Assembly (NCBI RefSeq): GCF_018474005.1
Contig: NZ_JAHCSH010000002.1
Location: 310,001 to 374,000 of the forward strand
DNA length: 64,000 bases
Source of the DNA: Curvibacter sp. CHRR-16
GTDB lineage: Bacteria > Pseudomonadota > Gammaproteobacteria > Burkholderiales > Burkholderiaceae_C
Direction of reading: 5' to 3'
The position numbers and the translations under genes were made by a program. Shown piece by piece: positions 31,835 to 37,706 of the stretch. The notes beneath the pieces were generated by a model. It had not been told where the DNA came from. It worked only from the letters and a program-made list of their open reading frames with translations, and ran no database searches. The stretch's first letter is position 1; each line of letters begins with the position of its first letter.

Positions 31835-31921
31835 AAAAGACGAAAGGCCGCATATAGCGGCCTTTCCATTTGGTGCATCTTTCAGCTTGTTAGCGTCCAG
31901 AGCGCATCCCAATCATTTAGT
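31835..31921 (-). ncRNA. tracrRNA, predicted short form
   Basis: About 87 nt on the minus strand. Read 5'-3' it contains the anti-repeat CTAAATGATTGGGAT then GCGCTCTGG then ACGCTAAC (31889-31920). This matches the array repeat in the plus orientation except for a 2-nt deletion and a few changes near the lower stem, so it base-pairs with a crRNA read from the minus strand. A nexus-like AAGCTGAAAGATGCACC follows, then a perfect 10-bp terminator hairpin and TCTTTT. The 5' end is placed by a TATGAT -10 box. It is required by Cas9 for crRNA maturation and cleavage. Confidence 0.88.
31842..31866 (-). terminator. Intrinsic terminator of the tracrRNA
   Basis: Perfect 10-bp stem GAAAGGCCGC / GCGGCCTTTC with a 5-nt loop. 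On the minus strand it is followed by GTCTTTTGTG. It ends the tracrRNA about 150 bp before the chemoreceptor start codon. Confidence 0.85.
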
Positions 31922-31928
31922 GGCTGTG

Positions 31929-31934
31929 ATCATA
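31929..31934 (-). promoter_or_regulatory. Candidate -10 box for the short tracrRNA
   Basis: TATGAT on the minus strand, eight bases before the anti-repeat, so transcription would start exactly at it. It also forms the loop of the 6-bp hairpin in the long form. The -35 region is weak (TTTCCG at 17-bp spacing). Confidence 0.45.
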
Positions 31935-31938
31935 CACA

Positions 31939-31974
31939 GCAGCGAAGGATTCGGAAATGCACTCTGGCCGGAAC
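31939..31974 (-). repeat. Degenerate CRISPR repeat immediately upstream of the tracrRNA
   Basis: Same length as the array repeat. The 16 bases GCACTCTGGCCGGAAC (plus-strand reading) differ from the array repeat at one position, and the 20-nt end differs at two. The other half (GAAGGATTCGG...) matches at about 12 of 17. It is in crRNA sense on the same strand as the tracrRNA. Confidence 0.85.
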
Positions 31975-31985
31975 CACGAACCACA
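31975..31985 (-). other. Guide 3' end (seed) of the long tracrRNA
   Basis: The 11 nt directly 5' of the degenerate repeat, TGTGGTTCGTG on the minus strand, occupy the PAM-proximal seed position of a Cas9 guide. They are repeated exactly at 32033-32043. Confidence 0.7.
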
Positions 31986-32021
31986 GTCATGAGCAATTCA
32001 AGATTGGCTTTCATTCTTGCG

Positions 32022-32027
32022 ATTATA
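32022..32027 (-). promoter_or_regulatory. Candidate -10 box of the long tracrRNA promoter
   Basis: Consensus TATAAT on the minus strand. A start seven bases downstream (about 32015) gives a 41-nt leader before the degenerate repeat. No consensus -35 is visible at 16-18 bp (the hexamers there are CAATTT, GCAATT and TGCAAT). Confidence 0.6.
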
Positions 32028-32032
32028 TCCCT

Positions 32033-32043
32033 CACGAACCACA
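32033..32043. promoter_or_regulatory. Predicted Cas9 self-target site in the tracrRNA/cas9 divergent promoter region
   Basis: TGTGGTTCGTG on the minus strand is identical to the 11-nt guide seed of the long tracrRNA. The PAM side reads AGGGATAT on the same strand and runs into the tracr TATAAT. Bound Cas9 would cover the tracr promoter spacer and reach the candidate cas9 -35 at 32046. Matching stops after 11 nt, a length expected to allow binding without cleavage. Confidence 0.6.
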
Positions 32044-32045
32044 AA

Positions 32046-32073
32046 TTGCATAAAACGCAGATTTATGCATAAT
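32046..32073 (+). promoter_or_regulatory. Candidate cas9 promoter
   Basis: TTGCAT (32046-32051), 16-bp spacer, CATAAT (32068-32073), with a predicted start near 32080 and a leader of about 220 nt. Divergent from the tracrRNA promoter. Confidence 0.5.
32047..32069. repeat. 8-bp inverted repeat across the cas9 promoter
   Basis: TGCATAAA / TTTATGCA with a 7-base centre, spanning the -35 to -10 interval of the candidate cas9 promoter. It could be a protein operator independent of the RNA-guided site. Confidence 0.45.
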
Positions 32074-32091
32074 GCACTACACAAAAAGAAA

Positions 32092-32251
32092 GGCGACGGT
32101 TGCTACCAACAACTCGCCGCCTCGTTCGCCAACCCACCCTGCGAGGGGATAACTTGGCTATCTGGGCCAAGAGGAGGATGCATATGTGATTAAACACATG
32201 ATCAGAAGAAACTTGGCCCGGCTCAACTCGTTATGAATTGAGCCGGGCCAA
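32092..32251 (+). promoter_or_regulatory. Structured cas9 leader with candidate attenuator
   Basis: Hairpin 1 spans 32092-32118 (GGCGA/TCGCC and GGTTG/CCAAC). Hairpin 2 is CTTGGC (32153-32158) with GCCAAG (32166-32171). Hairpin 3 is terminator-like at 32213-32251. GGGCCAAG (32164-32171) is also perfectly complementary to CTTGGCCC (32212-32219), so it can pair either with hairpin 2's left arm or with the left arm of hairpin 3. Between them an AGGAGG (32172-32177) precedes ATG-TGA (32184-32189), a start-stop element. The arrangement fits a transcription attenuator; no ligand is apparent. Confidence 0.45.
32213..32251 (+). terminator. Strong terminator-like hairpin upstream of cas9
   Basis: Perfect 14-bp arms TTGGCCCGGCTCAA / TTGAGCCGGGCCAA, 11-nt loop, then TTGTCTTAT. 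It ends 51 bp before the cas9 start codon. The T tract is interrupted, so it may be a conditional or weak terminator. Confidence 0.6.
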
Positions 32252-32302
32252 TTGTCTTATAAATGAACAGAAAGCTCAAAGATGAGCAGCAGGGAGAAGA
32301 AT

Positions 32303-35300
32303 ATGGCGAACATGCGCTACAGGCTTGCGCTCGATTTGGGAACAACATCACTAGGCTGGGCCATGATTCGGCTCAACCACGAAACACCACCTGCGCCAGT
32401 CGCCATCATCAAAGCCGGCGTGAGAATCTTTGCCGATGGACGCAACCCGAAAGATGGCTCATCCCTTGCCGTAACCCGGCGCGAAGCGCGTGCCATGCGC
32501 CGCAGGCGCGACCGATTGCTCAAGCGCAAAGCGCGCATGGAAAAGACGCTGATTGACCACGGTTTTTTCCCAGCCAATGAAGCTGAGCGCAAAGCCTTGG
32601 TCACTCTTGACCCCTACGAGCTGCGAGCCAAGGGCTTGGATGAAGCGCTGACGCCCGCCGAATTTGCCCGCGCCCTTTTCCACATCAACCAGCGACGCGG
32701 CTTCAAGAGCAACCGCAAGACGGACAAGAAGGACAACGACAGCGGTGCGCTGAAGCAGGCTATCTTGGGCTTGCGCTCCCAACTCCACCCGCAAGGCCAC
32801 GATGGCAAGGCACGCACGGTGGGCGAACTGCTGTACCGCCGTTTGACCAACACCGCCCTACCGCCCACCCAGCGCACGGTGCGCGCCCGCTACCGCGAGC
32901 AGCGCATCGTCAAAGACGACGGCAAATCCAAAATCGACAAGAGCTACGACCTCTACATCGACCGCGCCATGATCGAGGCTGAGTTCGATGCACTGTGGGC
33001 GAAACAATCGTCGCTCAACCCCACCCAGTTCAACCCCACGGCACGCGACCAGCTTAAAGACTGCCTGCTGCACCAGCGCCCGCTCAAACCCGTCAAGCCC
33101 GGGCGCTGCACCTTGCTGCCCGACGAAGAACGCGCCCCACTGGCTCTGCCTAGCGTACAGCGCTTTCGCATCTACCAAGAGGTGAACAACTTGCGCATCT
33201 TGCGCGAAGGCTTGAAGGAAGAAGCCCTCACGCTACAGCAACGCGATGCCTTGGTAGCCGCGCTGGAAGCCAATAGCAAACGCAGCTTCACGCAAATCAA
33301 AAAACTGCTAGGCATTGGTGGCGCAGTGCAGTTCAACTTTGAAGACCCCAAACGGCAAGAACTCAAGGGCAACACCACCAGCGCGATCTTGTCCAAGGAC
33401 GAATACTTTGGCAAAACATGGCTTGCCTTTGATGAAACCAAGCAAGACGCCATCGTGCTGCAACTGGTCACCGAAGAGAACGAAGCCAAGCTGGTGCAGT
33501 GGCTGCAAGCAGAAACAGGCATTGACGAACGCCGCGCCGATGCAATTGCCAATGTGGGACTGCCCGAAGGCTACGGCAGCCTGAGTAGCAAGGCGCTGGC
33601 GCGCATACTGCCCGAGCTACGGCGCGATGTGGTGACGTACGACAAAGCTGTGGTGGCAGCGGGGTTTGAACACCACAGCAACATAAGCCCGGCAGCCACT
33701 GGCGAAATACTGCCCGAGCTGCCGTATTACGGCATTCCGCTGCAGCGCCACGTAGGCTTTGGCACCGGCAAGCCCGAAGACCCTGATGAAAAGCGCTACG
33801 GCAAGATCGCCAACCCCACGGTACATATTGGCCTCAACCAAGTGCGCTTGGTTGTGAACGCCCTTATCAAACGCTACGGCCACCCCAGCGAAGTGATTGT
33901 GGAATTGGCACGCGACCTCAAGCAAAGCAAGGAGCAGCGTGATGAAGAGAATAAACGCCAGGCCGAGAACCAGCGACGCAACGCCCGGTTGCGCGCCGAC
34001 ATTGCAGGCGTATTGAACATCAGCCCCGAGCGCGTACGGGCTGCTGATATTCAAAAAATGATTCTGTGGGAAGAGTTGAGCGACAACGTGGCCGACCGCC
34101 GCTGCCCCTACTCGGGCGTGCAAATCAGTGCGGCCATGCTGCTGAGCGAGCAGGTCGAGATAGAACACATCCTGCCCTTCTCTGAAACACTGGATGACAG
34201 CCTGAACAACAAAACTGTTTCGCTGCGCCAAGCCAACCGCATCAAGGGAAACCGCACGCCATGGCAGGCGCGGGATGACTTTGAAGCGCAAGGCTGGAGC
34301 TATGCCGCCATGCTGGAGCGCGCCGAACAAATGCCCAAGGCCAAGCGCTACCGCTTTGGTGAAGATGGCTATGCACGTTGGCTCCAAGACGATGCGGGCT
34401 TTCTAGCCCGTGCACTCAACGACACCCGCCACCTGAGCAAAGTCGCCCGCGAATACCTAAGCCTGATCTGCCCGCAAAACACCCGCGTCATACCGGGGCG
34501 CATGACAGCCATGCTGCGTGCCAAGTTTGGTTTGAACGATGTGCTGAGTTTGCAAGGGGAGAAGAATCGCAACGACCACCGCCACCACGCGGTGGATGCC
34601 TGTGTGATTGGCGTAACCGACCAAGGTCTGCTGCAACGCTTTGCACAAGCCAGCGCCAGCGCACGGGAGCAGCAGCTAAATCGATTGGTGGAAAACATGC
34701 CTCCCCCGTGGGGCGAAAACCTGGATAACTATCGCGCCCATGTGCAACGAGCCATACAAAACATCTGGGTCAGCCACAAACCCGACCACGGCCATGAAGG
34801 TGCCATGCACAACGACACCGCCTACGGCCTGCTAGGCAATGGTCGTGTGAGCGTGCACAAGGTGGTGGATGGCAAGCGTGAGCGCATAGAAGACAACCTC
34901 AAAGTCATTGAATTCAGCAGCGCCAAAGCCGTAGCTCGCCACGGCGTACTGCCCACGGGCGAACCGCGCCCCTACAAGGGCTACAAGGGCGACAGCAACT
35001 ACTGCATCGAAATCGTGCGCAATGACAAGGGCAAGTGGGAAGGCGAAGTGATTTCCACCTTCGAGGCCTACCAACTGGTACGCACACATGGGCTGGCTCG
35101 GCTGCGGCATCCCAAATTGAGTGTGAGCGGGAAACCACTGGTGATGCGACTAATGATTGGTGACACCGTACGACTCAACAACGATGATCAACTGCTAACT
35201 GGACGAGTGGCGTGGATTAAGTCAAACACACAAATTGCACTCGCAGCCGTTCACGAAGCGAATACCGATGCACGGGCACGCGATAAAAATGACCCGTATA

Positions 35301-35401
35301 CATACACCGTAAAAACTGCTGGGGTATTCCAAAAAGTGAGCGCCCGCCGAGTCACCATCTCCCCCATCGGCGAACTCCACGACCCCGGATTCAAGGGGTA
35401 A
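32303..35401 (+). CDS. cas9: Cas9 endonuclease, type II-C
   Basis: 1032 aa, typical of compact II-C Cas9. Start set at MANMRYRLALDLG, six bases after AGGGAG; an ATG seven codons upstream has no such site. RuvC-I is LALDLGTTSLGWAMI (Asp11), then an arginine-rich bridge helix (TRREARAMRRRRDRLLKRKA). RuvC-II is EVIVELARDLK (Glu534), HNH is VEIEHILPFSET (His622) with Asn645 in RQANRIKGN, and RuvC-III is NDHRHHAVDACV (His762, Asp765). All nuclease residues are present. It cuts DNA guided by crRNA:tracrRNA, with a C-terminal PAM-interacting domain. cas1 follows 5 bp later. Confidence 0.98.
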   Translation: MANMRYRLALDLGTTSLGWAMIRLNHETPPAPVAIIKAGVRIFADGRNPKDGSSLAVTRREARAMRRRRDRLLKRKARMEKTLIDHGFFPANEAERKALVTLDPYELRAKGLDEALTPAEFARALFHINQRRGFKSNRKTDKKDNDSGALKQAILGLRSQLHPQGHDGKARTVGELLYRRLTNTALPPTQRTVRARYREQRIVKDDGKSKIDKSYDLYIDRAMIEAEFDALWAKQSSLNPTQFNPTARDQLKDCLLHQRPLKPVKPGRCTLLPDEERAPLALPSVQRFRIYQEVNNLRILREGLKEEALTLQQRDALVAALEANSKRSFTQIKKLLGIGGAVQFNFEDPKRQELKGNTTSAILSKDEYFGKTWLAFDETKQDAIVLQLVTEENEAKLVQWLQAETGIDERRADAIANVGLPEGYGSLSSKALARILPELRRDVVTYDKAVVAAGFEHHSNISPAATGEILPELPYYGIPLQRHVGFGTGKPEDPDEKRYGKIANPTVHIGLNQVRLVVNALIKRYGHPSEVIVELARDLKQSKEQRDEENKRQAENQRRNARLRADIAGVLNISPERVRAADIQKMILWEELSDNVADRRCPYSGVQISAAMLLSEQVEIEHILPFSETLDDSLNNKTVSLRQANRIKGNRTPWQARDDFEAQGWSYAAMLERAEQMPKAKRYRFGEDGYARWLQDDAGFLARALNDTRHLSKVAREYLSLICPQNTRVIPGRMTAMLRAKFGLNDVLSLQGEKNRNDHRHHAVDACVIGVTDQGLLQRFAQASASAREQQLNRLVENMPPPWGENLDNYRAHVQRAIQNIWVSHKPDHGHEGAMHNDTAYGLLGNGRVSVHKVVDGKRERIEDNLKVIEFSSAKAVARHGVLPTGEPRPYKGYKGDSNYCIEIVRNDKGKWEGEVISTFEAYQLVRTHGLARLRHPKLSVSGKPLVMRLMIGDTVRLNNDDQLLTGRVAWIKSNTQIALAAVHEANTDARARDKNDPYTYTVKTAGVFQKVSARRVTISPIGELHDPGFKG

Positions 35402-35406
35402 GCAGC

Positions 35407-36336
35407 ATGATCGGTCGCATCGTAGAAGTGGCCGATGATCGTCGGCATCTGTTCATGCACCGCGGCTTTATGGTGGTGCAAGACACTGAAGGCGAGCGCA
35501 AAGAGTTGGGCCAAGTGCCGCTGGATGACATTGCTGCCGTCATCGCCAATGCACACGGCCTGAGCTACACCAACAACCTGCTGGTGGCGCTGGCCGAGCG
35601 CGGAGCGCCCTTTGTGCTGTGCGCGGCCAACCACAACGCAGTGGGCATGTTGCTGCCGATTGACGGCAACTTTGAGCAAGCCAAACGCATAGAAGCCCAG
35701 ATAGCCGCCAGCCAACCCACTCACAAACGCCTCTGGGCGGCTGTGGTGCGCAGCAAGCTGGAGCAACAGGCCGCTGCACTAGAAGCCGCAGGCTCCCCCA
35801 CCGCACCGCTCACTGCGTTGGTATCCAAGGTCAAAAGTGGTGATCCAGAAAACGTGGAGGCACAAGGCGCTCAACGCTACTGGAAGCTGCTGTTTGGTGA
35901 CGCTTTCCGGCGTGATCAAAATGGCGGCGGGCTCAATGGTCTGCTGAACTACGGCTACACCGTACTGCGCGCCGCCACAGCACGGGCTGTGATCGCCGCT
36001 GGCCTACACCCCAGCATTGGCCTGCACCACAGCAACGACAACAACGCCATGCGCTTGGTAGACGATGTGATGGAGCCGTTCCGCCCCATCATCGACTTGA
36101 AGGTTTGGCATCTGCGCCGCAATGGCGAAGGCGAAGTAACCCCCGAAACCAAACGCGCCTTGGTTCGCACCCTGTACGACGACATGCAAACCGAGGCAGG
36201 GGCCACGCCTGTGATGGTGTGCACACAGAAGCTGGCCGTATCACTTGCACAGGTGTATTTAGGTGAAAGAGAAAAACTCGATTTACCGCTCCCGGGTCTG
36301 CCGTTGGCACTCATCAACGCACTGCAAGATGAATAG
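35407..36336 (+). CDS. cas1: CRISPR-associated endonuclease/integrase Cas1, type II-C
   Basis: 309 aa. Beta N-terminal domain then helical catalytic domain with metal-site residues Glu151 (VEAQGAQRYWK), His in GLHHSNDNNAMRLVDD, and Asp in the MEPFRPIIDLKVW region. With Cas2 it integrates new spacers into the array. Five bases after cas9 and 12 before cas2, so one operon. No csn2 or cas4 gene is present, which defines subtype II-C. Confidence 0.97.
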   Translation: MIGRIVEVADDRRHLFMHRGFMVVQDTEGERKELGQVPLDDIAAVIANAHGLSYTNNLLVALAERGAPFVLCAANHNAVGMLLPIDGNFEQAKRIEAQIAASQPTHKRLWAAVVRSKLEQQAAALEAAGSPTAPLTALVSKVKSGDPENVEAQGAQRYWKLLFGDAFRRDQNGGGLNGLLNYGYTVLRAATARAVIAAGLHPSIGLHHSNDNNAMRLVDDVMEPFRPIIDLKVWHLRRNGEGEVTPETKRALVRTLYDDMQTEAGATPVMVCTQKLAVSLAQVYLGEREKLDLPLPGLPLALINALQDE

Positions 36337-36348
36337 TGGCGTGCACCC

Positions 36349-36675
36349 ATGCTTTCTGGATACAGACTCATGTGGATGGTGGTGATGTTTGACCTGCCTG
36401 TGGTGGAAAAGGCCGAACGCAAGGCTGCCACTGAGTTTCGCAACACACTGTTAGACATGGGCTTTGAGATGAGCCAGTTCAGCGTATATATGCGCTTTTG
36501 CACCAGTGCAGCGCAAGTGGATACCTACTGCAAACGCGTAGAAGCAGCCTTGCCCGAAGGGGGTAAAGTGAATATCCTGCAATTCACTGACAAGCAGTAC
36601 GAACGCATTGTCAGCTTCCACGGAAAAGCAAAACTACCCGCCAATAAAACGCCCGATCAGTTCGACCTTTTTTAA
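36349..36675 (+). CDS. cas2: Cas2, type II-C
   Basis: 108 aa ferredoxin-fold protein, central dimer of the Cas1-Cas2 integrase. N-terminal strand WMVVMFDLPVVEKAERKAAT with the conserved Asp, then FSVYMRFC and KVNILQFTDKQYERIVSFHG. The ATG lies 12 bp after the cas1 stop; ends 71 bp before the first CRISPR repeat. Complete. Confidence 0.97.
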   Translation: MLSGYRLMWMVVMFDLPVVEKAERKAATEFRNTLLDMGFEMSQFSVYMRFCTSAAQVDTYCKRVEAALPEGGKVNILQFTDKQYERIVSFHGKAKLPANKTPDQFDLF

Positions 36676-36746: not shown

Positions 36747-37706
36747 AGTCTAGATGATTGGGATATGCGCTCTGGCCGGAACTACTTCCTTCTCAAAGTT
36801 TCCGACTTGTCGAGTCTAGATGATTGGGATATGCGCTCTGGCCGGAACAGGTAGATCGTTGTGTCGCTTTTGCGCAGAAGTCTAGATGATTGGGATATGC
36901 GCTCTGGCCGGAACCTGCAAGCCAAGCTATATGCGCTGGAGCATAGTCTAGATGATTGGGATATGCGCTCTGGCCGGAACAGCGCAGCCGCTACAGCGTG
37001 TTGGCCAACCAGTCTAGATGATTGGGATATGCGCTCTGGCCGGAACGGATAATGGCTGGATACGAATAATGGCGCAAGTCTAGATGATTGGGATATGCGC
37101 TCTGGCCGGAACGCGGTCTAGTCGGTGCACGTTGGTTCGGCTAGTCTAGATGATTGGGATATGCGCTCTGGCCGGAACATTGCTGCAACGACATTGCCCG
37201 CCTTCACAAGTCTAGATGATTGGGATATGCGCTCTGGCCGGAACATTGCTGCAACGACATTGCCCGCCTTCACAAGTCTAGATGATTGGGATATGCGCTC
37301 TGGCCGGAACTGCCGTGCCCGCACTGTGGCCACATGCAGTAGTCTAGATGATTGGGATATGCGCTCTGGCCGGAACCGCCATGCAGCACTGGCGTGATGC
37401 GGATCGAGTCTAGATGATTGGGATATGCGCTCTGGCCGGAACTGGCTTCGATTGCGACTGCTGGGTCAGGCAAGTCTAGATGATTGGGATATGCGCTCTG
37501 GCCGGAACGTACGCGAATAGTTCGATTCGTTTGGAAGCAGTCTAGATGATTGGGATATGCGCTCTGGCCGGAACTTGGCTATGCTGGCAGTGCTCGAAAG
37601 TCGCAGTCTAGATGATTGGGATATGCGCTCTGGCCGGAACACAGACCGACTGATAGATATTTCGCCTGCTAGTCTAGATGATTGGGATATGCGCTCTGGC
37701 GTAAGC
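36747..37706 (-). CRISPR. CRISPR array: 15 repeats of 36 bp, 14 spacers of 30 bp
   Basis: Repeats start at 36747 and every 66 bp up to 37671, with no spacer length variation. On the plus strand each begins AGTCTAGATGATTGGG and ends CTCTGGCCGGAAC; on the minus strand it begins GTTCCGGCC, the usual GTT start of type II repeats. All are identical except the last (37671-37706), whose final six bases are GTAAGC instead of CGGAAC. Spacers 7 (37179-37208) and 8 (37245-37274) are identical. Complementarity to the tracrRNA and the terminator at 36712 place crRNA synthesis on the minus strand. Spacer targets are unknown. Confidence 0.98.

Follow-up and report, generated by a model that had tools for sequence, protein, structure and literature searches.

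A putative natural single-guide RNA with a short match near the predicted tracrRNA and cas9 promoters of a type II-C CRISPR-Cas locus in Curvibacter

Extended tracrRNAs have been described in some type II-A CRISPR-Cas systems, where 11 nt of the RNA match a site next to a PAM, and the passages of one review that deal with them state that they are not found in other subtypes (PMC8616872). In Streptococcus pyogenes the 11-nt match of the long form, tracr-L, has its target at the cas promoter (PMC8616872, PMC11417352), and tracr-L occurs in many Streptococcus species with a 9-bp guide match (PMC8730458); the tracr-L of S. pyogenes and other streptococci, a result of Workman et al. 2021, is also cited in PMC12216829. 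In the type II-B system of Francisella novicida a diverged repeat has been repurposed in the scaRNA, with which Cas9 acts as a transcriptional repressor through a short guide match; this is a separate RNA that pairs with the tracrRNA in trans and represses lipoprotein genes (PMC8730458, PMC13431127). The scaRNA of Neisseria meningitidis is an RNA of a type II-C locus with a predicted sgRNA-like fold, which binds the efeO mRNA and lowers its translation, and the part of the report that presents it describes no guide match to its own cas promoter (PMC13431127). Finally, the type II-C locus of Bordetella pseudohinzii (BpsuCas9) has the genes cas9, cas1 and cas2, which match those of Alicycliphilus, and repeats of 36 nt; upstream of cas9, in divergent orientation, lies a putative tracrRNA, for which the section on this locus gives one predicted promoter and describes no fused repeat (PMC4624362). 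Within the literature searched, which covered few subscription papers and no preprints, autoregulation by a natural single-guide RNA is described only for type II-A, and no type II-C counterpart of tracr-L was found, the nearest being the meningococcal scaRNA.

We analysed a 64-kb window of Curvibacter sp. CHRR-16, by which we mean the whole stretch of 64,000 nucleotides at positions 310,001 to 374,000 of contig NZ_JAHCSH010000002.1, numbered from its first letter. As described for streptococcal tracr-L, there is a short guide match to the cas promoter region, for which binding without cleavage is predicted, and the long form would act as its own guide; for the two tracrRNA promoters of the streptococcal system the locus has candidate sites. 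Unlike tracr-L, it belongs to a type II-C Cas9-Cas1-Cas2 locus without csn2, and its predicted target falls between the predicted promoters of tracr-L and of cas9, which are divergent and may both be hit. It resembles the F. novicida scaRNA in its diverged repeat, its short guide match and the proposed role of Cas9, but here repeat and anti-repeat stand in cis and the site lies in the CRISPR locus. With the meningococcal scaRNA it shares the II-C setting and the sgRNA-like predicted fold, whereas the guide match to its own cas promoter region sets it apart, and it has the gene order, repeat length and divergent tracrRNA of the B. pseudohinzii locus, but with a second predicted promoter and a fused repeat.

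The type II-C locus and its fused repeat

We found cas9 on the plus strand at 32282-35401 (TIGR01865, 623 bits; PADLOC Cas9), followed by cas1 at 35407-36336 (TIGR03639, type II Cas1) and cas2 at 36349-36675 (TIGR01573; PADLOC Cas2_II), also on the plus strand. The cas9 open frame is whole, runs from 32282 and corresponds to a protein of 1039 aa, which contains stretches that we take to be the RuvC-I and HNH motifs; the ATG at 32303, behind GGGAGAAG, is the likelier start. A CRISPR array at 36747-37706, with its crRNA sense on the minus strand, consists of 14 exact repeats and one degenerate repeat of 36 nt (GTTCCGGCCAGAGCGCATATCCCAATCATCTAGACT in crRNA sense) and 14 spacers of 30 nt, which comprise 13 different sequences; an identical neighbouring pair of spacers lies at 37179-37274. 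Neither csn2 nor cas4 was found among the scanned proteins, and no open frame of at least 100 aa lies between cas2 and the array. With cas9-cas1-cas2 beside an array and without csn2 or cas4, the locus is type II-C. It also has the small Cas9 of this subtype (1039 aa, against about 1000 aa) and a tracrRNA in the locus, whose gene lies upstream of cas9 in divergent orientation and whose anti-repeat pairs with the array repeat. No Rfam family scored above its threshold anywhere in the 64-kb window.

The tracrRNA anti-repeat, at 31889-31920 on the minus strand, forms 25 predicted pairs with the array repeat and appeared in the repeat search as an 82% complementary stretch. It is followed by an intrinsic terminator hairpin at 31842-31866 on the same strand, with a 10-bp stem and then a T-rich tail. 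The anti-repeat is 2 nt shorter than in close relatives (GGGATGCG vs GGGATATGCG), and this loss gives a 2-nt bulge in the crRNA:tracrRNA duplex.

An earlier note on this DNA, made from the letters alone, had proposed that a degenerate repeat stands upstream of the anti-repeat and terminator on the minus strand, and the sequence confirms this arrangement. The note had the repeat extend over 36 nt (31974-31939); its first 27 nt, at 31948-31974, are indeed homologous to the array repeat (24/27 identical), whereas the final 9 nt are not, which leaves 25/36 identical overall. The first 13 nt of the repeat, GTTCCGGCCAGAG, occur with at most one mismatch at 16 sites in the organism's own genome, of which 14 are in the array, one is at the fused repeat and one, mismatched, is elsewhere, exact copies being confined to the array and the fused repeat. 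The fused repeat shares its strand with the tracrRNA and precedes the anti-repeat by 27 nt, and nothing resembling a terminator separates them; we therefore rejected a scaRNA of the II-B type, in which the diverged repeat of a separate RNA pairs with the tracrRNA in trans.

Next, we considered the fold of the RNA. The 181-nt stretch that would be transcribed folds to -68.1 kcal/mol (shuffles: mean -48.6, sd 4.0; z -4.8), and none of 200 shuffles was equally stable. In this predicted fold the fused repeat pairs with the anti-repeat in cis, within one transcript, in an sgRNA-like arrangement that contains a 2-nt bulge and a 1x1 mismatch and is capped by a 6-bp apical hairpin at 31923-31940 (minus strand), the hairpin that the note had placed after the repeat; its idea that the repeat half could fold onto the anti-repeat as in an engineered sgRNA is likewise borne out by the prediction. 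The modelled structure supports the anatomy of a natural single-guide RNA.

Predicted guide segment, predicted promoters and flanking sequence

We scanned the region 31870-32310 for promoters with a simple weight matrix of generic base frequencies. The best minus-strand site is a TATAAT at 32022-32027, the predicted -10 of a long tracrRNA starting near 32015, and the second best is a TATGAT at 31929-31934, in the loop of the apical hairpin, the predicted -10 of a short tracrRNA; on the plus strand the best site is TTGCAT-16 nt-CATAAT at 32046-32073, the predicted cas9 promoter. Their scores (9.5, 8.2 and 6.9, respectively) fall within the range of shuffled sequence, for which the top score has a median of 7.6 and a 90% point of 9.9, the predicted cas9 promoter being below that median, and a strict consensus scan found no promoter. 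The two minus-strand boxes would yield RNAs of about 181 and about 87 nt; for the long and short tracrRNAs of S. pyogenes type II-A the earlier note gives 171 and 89 nt.

Flush with the 5' end of the fused repeat lies an 11-nt segment, TGTGGTTCGTG, at 31975-31985 on the minus strand, which is the predicted guide (seed), and an exact copy of it, the predicted target site or protospacer core, lies at 32033-32043 on the same strand. This match, which formed no part of the earlier note's account, is rare at such a place: when 32016-32304 was dinucleotide-shuffled 20,000 times, 7 shuffles contained a match of at least 11 nt anchored at the repeat boundary, and none of 3142 other 289-nt segments of the window, taken every 20 nt, had one, the longest there being 10 nt. 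There are four copies of the 11-mer in the genome, namely the guide, the site and two within long open frames; with a chance expectation of about 1.6 copies and five copies of the reversed control, it is the place and not the number of the match that is remarkable. Beyond the 11 nt, guide and site are identical at 3 of 13 positions, and the two other copies match the guide at 1 and 3 of the next 13.

A short segment that matches the cas promoter region, as the guide of a natural single-guide autorepressor would, is present here (11/11 nt at 32043-32033), and its complementarity to the site would be too little for cleavage: with only 11 nt paired and 3/13 further positions matching, binding without cleavage by this Cas9 is expected. 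On one side the site is bounded by the -10 predicted for the long tracrRNA, on the other by the -35 predicted for cas9. If the predicted promoters are right, it falls within the -35/-10 interval of the long-tracrRNA promoter and just upstream of the cas9 -35; a single -35 hexamer, read from opposite strands, would then serve both promoters. The 11-nt match strengthens the natural single-guide reading. Two features of the full transcript as predicted call for caution: the seed has about 30 nt ahead of it, and part of the guide is taken up in a 5' hairpin rich in wobble pairs.

The flank 3' of the target, at 32025-32032 on the minus strand, is AGGGATAT and occupies the candidate PAM position. 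For the related BpsuCas9 a tentative PAM, 5'-WGR-3', was proposed from eight protospacers, according to the part of the report that treats it (PMC4624362). The flank fits this motif, as would 1 in 16 sites. Additionally, it carries a T and then a purine at positions 6-7, as do 5 of 9 candidate protospacers, a motif chosen post hoc. These protospacers came from a set of 96 distinct spacers of the window and seven relatives, 93 of which were run against 399 family genomes (35 + 58) and gave imperfect matches only, the arrays themselves aside. We kept the best match per spacer at 26/30 or better, in rows with a locus, which left nine spacers (L087, L089, L090, L092, L103, L107, L108, L140, L141); excluded were one spacer matching many genomes at no more than 25/30 (L086, L088, L091, L093-L102), sites of one spacer that ranked second (L109, L110) and those rows for which no locus was given. 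The flanks of the nine display no clear common motif. The window array and four further arrays (L059, L051, L062, L065) were searched against phages, and plasmids were searched with the window array as well; no protospacer matched exactly, and only the Limnohabitans array itself gave an E-value below 0.01. None of seven exact spacer seeds was found in viral contigs.

Distribution of the fusion among relatives

Relatives were collected by Cas9 search, which gave 6 of 61 relatives, 34 of 399 genomes from the family and 8 of 300 from the order (the window's own genome counted each time), and by tracrRNA search, which gave 9 of 103 genus genomes, again with its own counted. Each distinct region upstream of a tracrRNA, one row per region and with copies of the window locus skipped, was searched for a copy complementary to its own anti-repeat, in a test whose lowest possible p is 0.002. 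This value was reached in 2 of 37 rows, the window locus and L039. The other 35 rows gave p of at least 0.04, four of them below 0.1, as chance would give, and six further loci gave p of at least 0.39. The fused repeat is therefore found in none of 41 relatives (35 + 6 loci), whose Cas9 identity reaches 82%; nineteen closer Cas9s, of 85-92% identity (P0002-P0020), sit on metagenome contigs outside the 41. Left out of this number were loci identical to others (L007, L038, L040, L044, L046, L048), one in which no tail was found (L036), one with no clear anti-repeat (L045), one that was not recovered (L014) and one that entered a separate test only (L037, z -0.3).

The earlier note had proposed a search of related II-C loci for the same fusion and had named a lack of conservation in relatives as a ground for refutation; in all 41 relatives covered here, the sequence upstream of the anti-repeat is indeed not conserved. 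We therefore rejected the fused repeat as a general feature of these II-C loci. Its absence from these relatives points to a lineage-specific origin, which we infer to be independent of streptococcal tracr-L; going by these sequences, the trait would be recent in this lineage or have been lost in the others.

Among the relatives, plasmid pTEGF4 of Limnohabitans sp. TEGF004 (L051) carries a complete II-C locus of the same group, with a Cas9 71% identical and a short tracrRNA only, adjoined by transposase-like remnants as judged by eye. We also observe broken cas9 genes in some relatives (L014, L015, L003/L007), with internal stop codons in G079 and G244 and two pieces in different frames in G026; the tracrRNA is kept in G244 and G026 despite the broken cas9.

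We also scanned for the fused pattern more widely, requiring GGGA, CTCTG and CGCTAACAAGC, a filter that fusions with a more diverged tracrRNA escape. The scan gave three matches in species genomes (L038, L040, L039) and none in viral contigs. Two of the three, from Vandammella (L038 and L040, the same loci as L018 and L022), were rejected as chance occurrences of CAGAG (p 0.12 and 0.11). The remaining one, L039, at about 830-640 on the minus strand of the Rugosibacter MAG contig JAUSQB010000463.1, is a real fusion of repeat, anti-repeat and tracrRNA tail with near-perfect pairing (z -4.9). It is an orphan that sits between unrelated genes. Its genome gave no match to Cas9, its presumed 11-nt guide has no second copy, and it is either a natural sgRNA without Cas9 or a relic. 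In the same genus as the window, genome G034, which has no Cas9 match, holds a decayed tracrRNA-like tail with a terminator at about 1495-1570 (L045).

Proposed autorepression and competing readings

The layout, one of binding without cutting as reported for S. pyogenes tracr-L, leads us to read the RNA as a natural single-guide autorepressor in a type II-C system, with a probability of roughly 0.6. The predicted promoter at 32027-32022 would produce the long RNA of about 181 nt and that at 31934-31929 the ordinary tracrRNA of 87 nt. In the long RNA the repeat would pair with the anti-repeat in cis, as computed, like an engineered sgRNA, and Cas9 would load it as a single guide. The 11-nt seed would then direct Cas9 to its match at 32043-32033, where pairing ends after 11 nt, and by analogy with S. 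pyogenes Cas9 would bind without cleaving. Once bound, Cas9 with its RNA would lie over the -35/-10 interval of the long-tracrRNA promoter and reach the cas9 -35, exerting negative feedback on the level of Cas9. Several observations speak against this reading: the fusion is absent from the 41 relatives, the promoter scores do not exceed the range of shuffled sequence, most candidate protospacers are imperfect and differ in their flanks, the guide is partly paired and not at the 5' end of the predicted transcript, and the fused repeat pairs with the anti-repeat less well than the array repeat does (-51.3 vs -62.2 kcal/mol).

It is possible, though unlikely, that the structure is instead a fossil, a stray repeat duplicated beside the tracrRNA gene and now decaying, with the long RNA unmade or guideless and the 11-nt match a product of chance or of a small duplication. 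Decay would agree with the degenerate repeat (24/27, with the last 9 nt unlike the array repeat), its absence from all 41 relatives and the decayed orphan tracrRNA of G034, but the changes in the repeat leave most of the pairing with the anti-repeat. Furthermore, the match is flush with the repeat and between the predicted promoters, a coincidence seen in only 7 of 20,000 shuffles, and the lack of homology past 11 nt, by eye and by position count, indicates that it is not part of a larger duplication. It seems improbable to us that the long form is a self-sequestering tracrRNA, which would restrict crRNA loading by masking its anti-repeat in cis and in which the upstream 11 nt would play no part: the predicted fold does take up the anti-repeat in cis, but the fused repeat pairs with it more weakly than the array repeat (-51.3 vs -62.2 kcal/mol), and the 11-nt match is left unexplained.

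An RNA of the same anatomy could also have its targets outside the locus, in other genes or in a mobile element, in the manner of the F. novicida scaRNA, and the genome does hold two other exact copies of the 11-mer. We regard this as very improbable: chance would give about 1.6 copies and the reversed control has five, and these two copies continue the match at only 1 and 3 of the next 13 positions and are located within long open frames rather than a promoter region; on this last ground we rejected the idea that the guide acts mainly on them.

Returning to the autorepressor, a fuller history can be proposed, to which we give even odds: a II-C system would have evolved its natural single-guide autorepressor independently, when, in a single lineage, a copy of the repeat came to lie next to a short tracrRNA and acquired an 11-nt guide to the shared tracrRNA/cas9 promoter region, through which Cas9 would repress its own operon and the repressor RNA. 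A II-C case absent from relatives would show that control by natural single-guide RNAs has evolved repeatedly. It would also serve, with its compact Cas9, as a model of the cost of Cas9 and would put to a natural test the rule that Cas9 binds but does not cleave at 11 nt, and a length of 11 nt as in streptococci would, if true, point to a general rule of binding but not cutting among distant Cas9s.

Upstream of the cas9 start we additionally observe a 17-bp hairpin at 32213-32251, preceded, as judged by eye, by further small inverted repeats; it may serve cas9 as a structured leader or as an attenuator. By eye, the relatives examined lack this hairpin and have a short gap between tracrRNA and cas9.
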